A stretch of 24,811 nt of DNA from a virus: positions 1 to 24,811 of the IMG/VR virus record IMGVR_UViG_3300028822_000182; one strand, written 5' to 3'. Positions within the stretch are counted from its first letter, which is position 1. Every line of letters starts with the position of its first letter. Both the position numbers and the translations under genes were made by a program. The notes beneath the pieces are model-generated. The model was not told the DNA's origin and did no database searches. It saw nothing but the letters and a program-made list of their open reading frames with translations. This document shows, in pieces, positions 21,003 to 23,227 of the stretch.

Positions 21003-21176
21003 ATGGCACTTGAAAGGACTTGCAGACTCTGTAAAAAGAATTTCGATCCTAAAAGAGATTGGCAAAAATTCTGTTCTAAAAAATGCCAGAAAGAATATTG
21101 GAGGCAAGTTTTTCAAGATAAAGCAACAATAAATAAAAGACTTGAAAAAATTGAAAAACAATTAGAAGTGAAATAA
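21003..21176 (+). CDS. Small treble-clef zinc-finger protein
   Basis: 57 residues, TAGGAGAG site. C7-x2-C10 (CRLCKKNF), then C24-x3-C28 (KFCSKKC) is a classic treble-clef zinc site like the one fused to the N-terminus of the next gene and the antisense HNH protein. A coiled-coil helix follows (KRLEKIEKQLEVK). It ends on TAATG with the endonuclease gene. It may be a DNA-binding partner or a cut-down relative of the same domain; role unknown. Confidence 0.65.
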   Translation: MALERTCRLCKKNFDPKRDWQKFCSKKCQKEYWRQVFQDKATINKRLEKIEKQLEVK

Positions 21177-21772
21177 TGACATATCTAAGAGATGGTATTT
21201 GTATATTCTGCGGTGAATCCCATGAAAGACGAACTCCAAAAGGAAATTATAGATATTATTGTTCAGAAAAATGTCAAAAAAAAGCACAAAATGAATTTTC
21301 TATCTTTCAAGATAAAAAAATGGATATTAAACGAAAAAGAAATTATCTTTGTCTAACTTGTAAATATGGATGTAAACATAGACGAACTCTTACTATGAAA
21401 AGTTTGCTTATATATTGTCCAAAATATGAAATGCAAGATTATTCATATTTAAGAGAATCACAAAATATAAGACCAACAAAACCTGAAAAAATATTAGATG
21501 ATAATACTTCAAATTCAATAAAATATGTTGGTGATGCAAAGAAATGGATTAAATTAAATAATGGGAAACTGAAGAATCCGGATTTTATTGTGAAAGGACA
21601 AAAGAAAATCATTGAAGTTTTTGGAGATTATTGGCATAAAAATGATGATCCTCAAGAATTAATAAACTTATATAAGCAGATTGGATATGATTGTATAATT
21701 TTTTGGGAGCATGAAATTCATAATGATATAGATTTAATTAAAGAAAAAGTTGAAATATTTATAAGTCAATAA
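21176..21772 (+). CDS. Vsr-like (EDxHD) homing endonuclease with zinc fingers
   Basis: 198 residues. Two N-terminal Cys clusters: C9-x2-C12/C29-x3-C33 and C59-x2-C62-x3-C66. The C-terminal domain is Vsr-like: 'LKNPDFIVKGQKKIIEVFGDYWHKND' has D136, E147 and H154, and is followed by 'YKQIGYDCIIFWEHEI'. The E-V-x-G-D-x-W-H pattern is the EDxHD family of phage homing nucleases (a branch of PD-(D/E)XK). It should nick or cut DNA at a specific site and move with it. Coding is AT-rich with AAA/AAT-heavy codons unlike the structural genes, which fits recent arrival. Confidence 0.75.
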   Translation: MTYLRDGICIFCGESHERRTPKGNYRYYCSEKCQKKAQNEFSIFQDKKMDIKRKRNYLCLTCKYGCKHRRTLTMKSLLIYCPKYEMQDYSYLRESQNIRPTKPEKILDDNTSNSIKYVGDAKKWIKLNNGKLKNPDFIVKGQKKIIEVFGDYWHKNDDPQELINLYKQIGYDCIIFWEHEIHNDIDLIKEKVEIFISQ

Positions 21773-21792: not shown

Positions 21793-21978
21793 ATGGAGGA
21801 TCTGAAAGACAGGATTACTCACAAAGGAAAACTCTTTTATTATGTCATTAATTTTGGCAACAACCGGATCTATGGCAGAGGCAAAAAAAGGTTAATGGTC
21901 AATGAGAAAGATGAAGTAGAAAGAACTTTCTCCATAAACCGGAAAAGAAGTTTAAGCTCAATTTTAGGGAAGGCTTAA
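21793..21978 (+). CDS. Small basic hypothetical protein
   Basis: 61 residues, AAGGAGG site. Strand-like start (KGKLFYYVINFGNNRIYGRG) and a basic end (TFSINRKRSLSSILGKA). It directly precedes the precursor-like peptide gene, whose ATG follows its stop at once. No family recognised; co-translation with the next gene suggests shared expression. It is not evidently a peptide-binding (RRE-type) domain, and no maturase is seen nearby. Confidence 0.5.
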   Translation: MEDLKDRITHKGKLFYYVINFGNNRIYGRGKKRLMVNEKDEVERTFSINRKRSLSSILGKA

Positions 21979-22134
21979 ATGAAAGAAAAAAAGCCTTACA
22001 AAAAGCCAATATTAACAAAAGTTCCACTCCGGCCACAAGAAGCTGTTCTTGGTTTTTGTAAAACCAGCAATACAAGAGGGCCAGGAATTGCAACTTGTGC
22101 TTTTCCAAATGGCTGCTACACATTGGGATCATAA
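21979..22134 (+). CDS. Cys-containing small peptide resembling a RiPP precursor
   Basis: 51 residues. A leader-like start (MKEKKPYKKPILTKVPL), then 'RPQEAVLGFCK', then a Gly/Thr/Ser-rich end with C27, C40 and C46 closing in YTLGS. This layout (KKPYxKPxLxKVxLxPxEAVLxxC followed by a short Cys-bearing core) recalls, from memory, a set of roughly 50-residue peptides I regard as likely ribosomal peptide natural-product precursors. I cannot confirm a family without a search. No maturase, transporter or peptidase lies within the window, so if it is modified, host or distant phage enzymes must act. It starts right after the previous stop. Confidence 0.5.
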   Translation: MKEKKPYKKPILTKVPLRPQEAVLGFCKTSNTRGPGIATCAFPNGCYTLGS

Positions 22135-22145
22135 GAAATAGGGAA

Positions 22146-22274
22146 ATGACATTTTTAGATTGGGCTTGGATAGTATGTTATTGCATTTCTTTCATTTTAT
22201 CTGTCATTGTAATTGAAAGAAAATTGACACGAATTGTAAACAATATAAAAGGAGGCGATGGATTGAAAAAATGA
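22146..22274 (+). CDS. Small single-pass membrane peptide
   Basis: 42 residues: N-terminal hydrophobic segment (FLDWAWIVCYCISFILSVIVIE) and a short basic cytoplasmic-type tail (RKLTRIVNNIKGG). An AGGGA site is 5 bases ahead. One membrane span with a positive tail could suit a small holin, an antiholin or an envelope regulator. No endolysin is present nearby, so the lysis idea is weak. Not in any family I recognise. Confidence 0.4.
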   Translation: MTFLDWAWIVCYCISFILSVIVIERKLTRIVNNIKGGDGLKK

Positions 22275-22324
22275 GTGGAGGATTTTTAAACCAGCTCAAC
22301 TGTTGTAAGTGGAGGGGAGGCTGA
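22271..22324 (+). CDS. Possible 17-residue leader peptide
   Basis: ATG overlaps the previous stop (ATGA). It encodes MSGGFLNQLNCCKWRGG. Its stop falls in the loop of the hairpin at 22311-22338, so ribosomes on it would unwind or cover the left arm. This is the geometry of a leader peptide, but short chance ORFs are common. Confidence 0.2.
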   Translation: MSGGFLNQLNCCKWRGG

Positions 22325-22338
22325 AAGGCTTCTCCTCC
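22311..22338 (+). promoter_or_regulatory. Strong RNA hairpin ahead of 22359 gene
   Basis: GGAGGGGAGGC, 6-base loop TGAAAG, GCTTCTCCTCC: 11 pairs with two G-U. No U run follows, so it is not a typical terminator. The left arm is a very strong SD-like run, hidden when paired. The next gene's AAAGGAGG is 8 bases beyond. It could regulate translation or protect RNA ends. Confidence 0.6.
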
Positions 22339-22358
22339 AAATAATAAAGGAGGATTAA

Positions 22359-22777: not shown

Positions 22778-23227
22778 ATGAGAAAAGGACAACATCATTC
22801 TGAAAAAACAAAAAGAAAAATAGGCAAAGCCAATAAAGGAAAAATTCGTTCTGAAAAAACAAAAAGAAAAATAAGTGAATCACTTAAAGGAAGAATTTCT
22901 CCAAATTGGAAAGGTGGAAGAAAAATTTCTGGAGGATATGTTTTTATTTATATGCCTGATCATCCAAATAATGTGCAAGGATATATTAGAAGAAGTCGTT
23001 TAATAGCAGAGAAAGCATTAGGTAGATATTTAAAACGAAATGAAATTGTCCATCATATTAATGAAAACAAATCGGATGATAGAAATTGCAATCTTTTAAT
23101 CTGCACTCAAGGTTATCATATATGGCTTCATCGAAAAATGGAAAGATTAAATAGATATAAAGGAATGAATAAATGGATATTTTTATTTATAGAAATAGGG
23201 AAAATAAAAGGATATGAAAATGGTTAA
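22778..23227 (+). CDS. HNH homing endonuclease with tandem NUMOD3 modules
   Basis: 149 residues. Two NUMOD3-type DNA-binding repeats (SEKTKRKIGKANKGKI, SEKTKRKISESLKGRI), then 'SPNWKGG', a strand segment (GGYVFIYMPDHPNNV), and an HNH_3 core: 'RSRLIAEKALGRYLKRNEIVHHINENKSDDRNCNLLICTQGYHIWLH'. Key H-H and the N/D-x-R-x-x-N-L segment are present. No clear SD lies before the ATG. It is in the same strand as the phage genes and sits between short ORF remnants. Unlike the antisense copy at 3853, it lacks an N-terminal zinc finger. Confidence 0.85.
   Translation: MRKGQHHSEKTKRKIGKANKGKIRSEKTKRKISESLKGRISPNWKGGRKISGGYVFIYMPDHPNNVQGYIRRSRLIAEKALGRYLKRNEIVHHINENKSDDRNCNLLICTQGYHIWLHRKMERLNRYKGMNKWIFLFIEIGKIKGYENG
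22798..22873 (+). repeat. Tandem repeat encoding two NUMOD3 modules
   Basis: A 25-base sequence at 22798-22822 is repeated exactly at 22849-22873, unit 51 bases (17 residues), and encodes SEKTKRKI twice. The intervening bases differ, so only part of each module is conserved. Confidence 0.85.

Follow-up and report, generated by a model that had tools for sequence, protein, structure and literature searches.

What use could a phage have for a single RiPP precursor? The question is raised by a 51-aa ORF in a virus record, in which a preliminary description had seen the build of a precursor peptide within an operon with no visible maturase.

The phage ORF and its surroundings

The window, that is, the whole 24,811-nt stretch of viral DNA analyzed here, encodes an epsilon15-type major capsid protein and a tape-measure protein, and near its right end an exonuclease-like gene matches Cas4/exonuclease PHROGs. 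The contig is linear (24.8 kb), and the record is probably incomplete. About half of the genome probably remains unseen, given that the best matches among phages with a related capsid protein measure 50-56 kb. The 51-aa ORF, which runs from ATG to TAA at 21979-22134 (+) and encodes MKEKKPYKKPILTKVPLRPQEAVLGFCKTSNTRGPGIATCAFPNGCYTLGS, is flanked by phage genes on either side, and its GC3 of 0.25 compares with 0.12-0.42 for the other phage genes. The basic leader, EAVLG junction, and Cys-bearing tail of the preliminary description were correctly placed in it. The features of the region are as follows:

21793..21978, + strand: 61-aa ORF (reading frame) directly upstream of the peptide, its stop abutting the peptide start
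21979..22134, + strand: RiPP-precursor-like orphan peptide of 51 aa, with leader MKEKKPYKKPILTKVPLR, junction PQEAVLGFCK, and core-like tail TSNTRGPGIATCAFPNGCYTLGS
21997..22008, + strand: YKKP, an instance of the [YW]xxP leader motif found in relatives, putative docking site for a PqqD-type RRE
22033..22062, + strand: PQEAVLGFCK junction motif (family consensus PEEAVLxxCK; alignment A1)
22146..22274, + strand: 42-aa hydrophobic ORF (reading frame), single-pass membrane-like, 11 nt past the peptide stop

The stop of the 61-aa ORF and the start of the peptide are contiguous (TAA/ATG), with a purine-rich AGGGAAGG about 5 nt 5' of the peptide ATG, and the two are probably co-translated, while the 42-aa ORF possibly belongs to the same operon. 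Neither Pfam nor NCBIfam nor the phage collection has a match for the 61-aa ORF, no homologue of the 42-aa ORF was found in the fetched loci of bacterial relatives, and promoter/terminator, Rfam, and tRNA scans added nothing.

The peptide region is bracketed by two endonuclease-like genes. The ORF at 21176-21772, with a GC content of only 0.25, combines a Cys-rich N terminus with a weakly Vsr/DUF559 endonuclease-like C terminus. The ORF at 22778-23227 resembles NUMOD3/HNH homing endonucleases, and about 105 bp of its DNA are 75% identical to the HNH endonuclease gene of Staphylococcus phage IME-SA4. Separately, a G/C-rich inverted repeat without a T tract (GGAGGGGAGGC...GCTTCTCCTCC) lies at 22312-22339, 5' of a 79-aa ORF.

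A bacterial precursor family and its gene neighborhoods

When searched alone against Pfam, NCBIfam, PHROGs, PDB sequences, phages, plasmids, and viral contigs, the phage peptide returned nothing useful; matches in Microbacterium phages (E 1-2) and weak matches to tryptase inhibitors in the PDB were judged to be due to chance. Its relatives were reached only via a degenerate DNA pattern for P[EQ]EAVLxxCK, which with one genome per species gave at least 118 stretches, mostly encoding small peptides. After filtering, the family set comprised at least 114 bacterial peptides in at least 109 loci, spanning more than 10 phyla. In samples of two phyla, 11 of 297 Thermodesulfobacteriota and 44 of 295 Nitrospirota encoded members. 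Pfam, NCBIfam, and PHROGs lack a model for this precursor family, and the literature searched contained neither a mention nor a product of it, nor its motif together with radical SAM; for SynChlorMet, too, it gave no match. The family appears to be undescribed in these libraries and this literature.

Against a profile made from the bacterial peptides alone (114 among the matches listed), the phage ORF scores 65.6 bits (E 1.8e-18), the member median being 64.1 bits. Because the motif had been used for gathering the set, it was masked in a further test, in which the phage peptide still scored 45.5 bits, whereas none of 1,000 shuffles exceeded 16.6 bits. The E value and the masked-motif test exclude chance resemblance. 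Judged by these comparisons, the 51-aa ORF is a real gene, and the phage peptide almost certainly belongs to a precursor family associated with radical-SAM enzymes.

The common form of the family reads KK-x-Y-xx-P ... LxPEEAVLGxCK ... GP ... C ... C ... GS, with a second branch of the form KxWxKPELIVLVRxKPEEAVL. Besides PEEAVLxxCK, members usually carry two further Cys and often end in GS; in alignment A1, the junction is invariant at its P, E, A, V, L, C, and K columns. The YxxP and PEEAVL segments are near-invariant, while the tail varies except for its Cys, GP, and GS, a pattern that fits the leader/core split initially proposed. The phage peptide has the leader motif, the junction Cys, the tail Cys, and the terminal GS (alignment A1; statistics over the members listed), its tail retaining three Cys, GP, CxxPxxC, and the final GS. 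The [YW]xxP leader, found in 111 of 114 members among the matches listed, matches the W/Y/LxxP sequence mapped as the recognition sequence of PqqD-like RREs (PMC12710340), of which YxxP is characterized for lasso peptides (PMC12710340), whose leaders are of the YxxPxL type (PMC10368454).

Among the members recovered, the nearest relative of the phage peptide (63% identity) is L173, from a Thermodesulfobacteriota metagenome-assembled genome, with which it branches with a support of 99/93 in a tree built on 48 columns. A class-level search around the L173 genome did not find a closer precursor. The L173 locus also holds HprK-like and S26-like genes and part of a radical-SAM gene. Between the two coding sequences, 9 codons are identical, 23 differ synonymously, and 16 nonsynonymously, the differences being distributed 14/13/33 over the codon positions (pN 0.26; pS 0.88, saturated). 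This codon signal, in which synonymous changes dominate, is one of constraint, and is due in part to selection along the bacterial branch.

The neighborhoods of the relatives point to a maturation system. Of 109 tiles among the matches listed, 96 contain radical-SAM genes, 81 HprK-like genes, 70 PqqD genes, and 66 S24/S26 peptidase genes; none of these was detected with the same profiles in eight control tiles that hold chance motif matches. Neighbors were found by clustering with mutual coverage and by profiles built from the same loci, and for that reason their identities rest on Pfam/NCBIfam matches of representatives: PF04055, PF05402, and PF00717, with PF13186 just under cut-off and the NCBIfam matches (HprK-related, Scm) below cut-off. 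The common order is PqqD, radical SAM, precursor, HprK-like, S24/S26 peptidase, and it recurs in a separate phylum-level genome sample that partly overlaps the first set. As judged from these gene contents, the maturase associated with the family is a radical-SAM enzyme, and radical-SAM enzymes probably turn the bacterial relatives into natural products. The preliminary likening to RiPP precursors is thus borne out: instead of homologues confined to phages without modification genes, which had been named as counting against it, bacterial homologues are abundant and in most loci lie beside radical-SAM and PqqD genes.

In Chloroflexota and others, long ORFs (L199:589-2499, L163, L166, and L198) match both radical-SAM and HprK-like profiles and are apparent fusions of the two. 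In L089:2743-6612 and similar S24/S26-tagged ORFs of Acidobacteriota, the S24/S26-like peptidase seems to be fused to, or to run into, a large secreted protein with a C25 (gingipain-type) peptidase domain at its end. A precursor in L268 also neighbors a C25 peptidase.

A lone precursor in the phage

Neither PF04055 nor any of the maturation profiles has a match in the 24.8-kb window, which reaches about 22 kb upstream of the peptide and 2.7 kb downstream of it, so that the preliminary statement about a missing maturase holds for this linear, probably incomplete record. Adjacency to radical-SAM, PqqD, HprK-like, or S24/S26 genes, typical of the family and not strictly defining, is not seen for the phage copy, and no host flanking genes were found around it. 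Scans of IMG/VR with exact, relaxed, and stricter patterns and with the family alignment, in which the patterns cover part of the family and near-identical records may be omitted, found no other true viral member. One viral pattern match (L002) was judged to be chance, its ORF being endonuclease-like in appearance and without a family reading, as were four more (L229-L232), whose frames are interrupted by stops. As for the host, a search with the capsid protein gave no copy in 295 Nitrospirota and three distant copies (42-46%) in 297 Thermodesulfobacteriota.

Bacteria also harbor precursors without maturation genes nearby. Members occur in four of four Schekmanbacteria genomes, at ten places in one of them, mostly with no maturation gene across the 5-19 kb examined and often beside large, secreted-looking proteins. 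By analogy, these scattered copies suggest action in trans, with one enzyme set possibly serving many precursors. In genome G602, near-identical precursors (L259-L265; CKSDTGAGPNQSxCIIPQCFNPGS) are dispersed and adjoin large proteins that look secreted, some of them of beta-propeller types (SBBP/DUF7948, RCC1, and LVIVD); the G602 peptide may work in partnership with surface repeat proteins.

We favor, with moderate confidence, the explanation that the phage peptide serves host PqqD/radical-SAM enzymes as an additional precursor and that host-dependent maturation is its selected role. Against this reading, a single phage copy offers no conservation among phages that would show selection there. 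The peptide would be made from the small phage operon during infection or lysogeny, and its YKKP leader would bind a PqqD-type recognition protein of the host. A host radical-SAM enzyme would then modify the Cys-containing tail beyond the EAVLG junction, and a host S24/S26 peptidase, or an exporter, would free the tail as an additional peptide product. More tentatively, phages might use host RiPP maturases in trans while carrying the precursor only, an infected or lysogenized cell making a phage-specified modified peptide.

The gene might instead be a passenger, a host precursor gene captured near homing endonucleases and without a selected role, as the single viral copy and the endonuclease-like genes on both sides (21176-21772 and 22778-23227) would allow. 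However, the frame is intact, all conserved family positions are retained, the peptide start abuts the upstream stop, no host flank was brought along, and synonymous sites are saturated relative to all relatives compared; we regard capture without a role as unlikely. It is somewhat less likely still that the peptide acts as a decoy, its leader titrating the host PqqD/radical-SAM machinery and blocking a host peptide product. The leader and junction are indeed the best-conserved parts, and the record has no maturation or export gene, but a leader alone would suffice, whereas here the tail has retained its Cys, GP, and terminal GS. Because the whole tail is kept, a processed product is favored over a mere decoy.

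We consider it quite improbable that the phage carries a complete biosynthetic cluster with its maturase in the unseen part of the genome: this linear record probably lacks part of the genome, and its best capsid-related phages reach 50-56 kb, but in bacteria these genes are adjacent, and here none lies in the roughly 22 kb upstream or 2.7 kb downstream, while PF04055 is also absent from eight capsid-related IMG/VR records, all short. Finally, an assembly chimera or chance resemblance, brought to mind by the single record and the short peptide, can practically be discounted, chance by the profile and masked-motif results above, and a chimera by the lack of the host flanking genes expected of it and by a GC3 inside the range of the other phage genes.

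If host-dependent maturation is indeed the role of the phage peptide, a lone precursor using host PqqD/radical-SAM enzymes would offer phages a compact route to redirecting host peptide chemistry, and the product might serve to alter the surface, to keep out rival phages, or in competition among cells. The phage peptide also points to a radical-SAM precursor family that is widespread in bacteria and lacks a model in Pfam and NCBIfam.

Comparison with known systems

The bacterial loci resemble SynChlorMet (Scm; TIGR04248-TIGR04251) in that their HprK-like protein matches ScmC, their PqqD-like protein ScmD, and their radical-SAM/SPASM proteins ScmE and ScmF. However, these matches lie far under the curated cut-offs (e.g., 91 vs. 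400 bits), and no NCBIfam model matches the precursor family.

With paeninodin-type lasso precursors, the family shares a YxxPxL-type leader (PMC10368454) and a discrete PqqD-type RRE/chaperone. In contrast to lasso systems, its tail is Cys-rich with a GS end, and its conserved neighbor clusters are radical SAM, HprK-like, PqqD, and S24/S26, no lasso-cyclase cluster being seen on clustering; lasso models matched two of 20 precursor members weakly and nonsignificantly (best E 0.016). HprK-like kinases occur in some lasso clusters too.

The combination of a radical-SAM maturase, an RRE, and a Cys-containing core is reminiscent of sactipeptides and ranthipeptides (AlbA, StsB, and PapB), although the family maturases match AlbA/StsB/PapB-type models only below cut-off. 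Lastly, a RiPP gene on a phage recalls phage-borne bacteriocin/RiPP clusters; sublancin, for example, is a RiPP encoded in prophage SPbeta. To our knowledge, known phage RiPP genes belong to clusters with their own maturation and export enzymes, whereas the phage record described here carries the precursor only.
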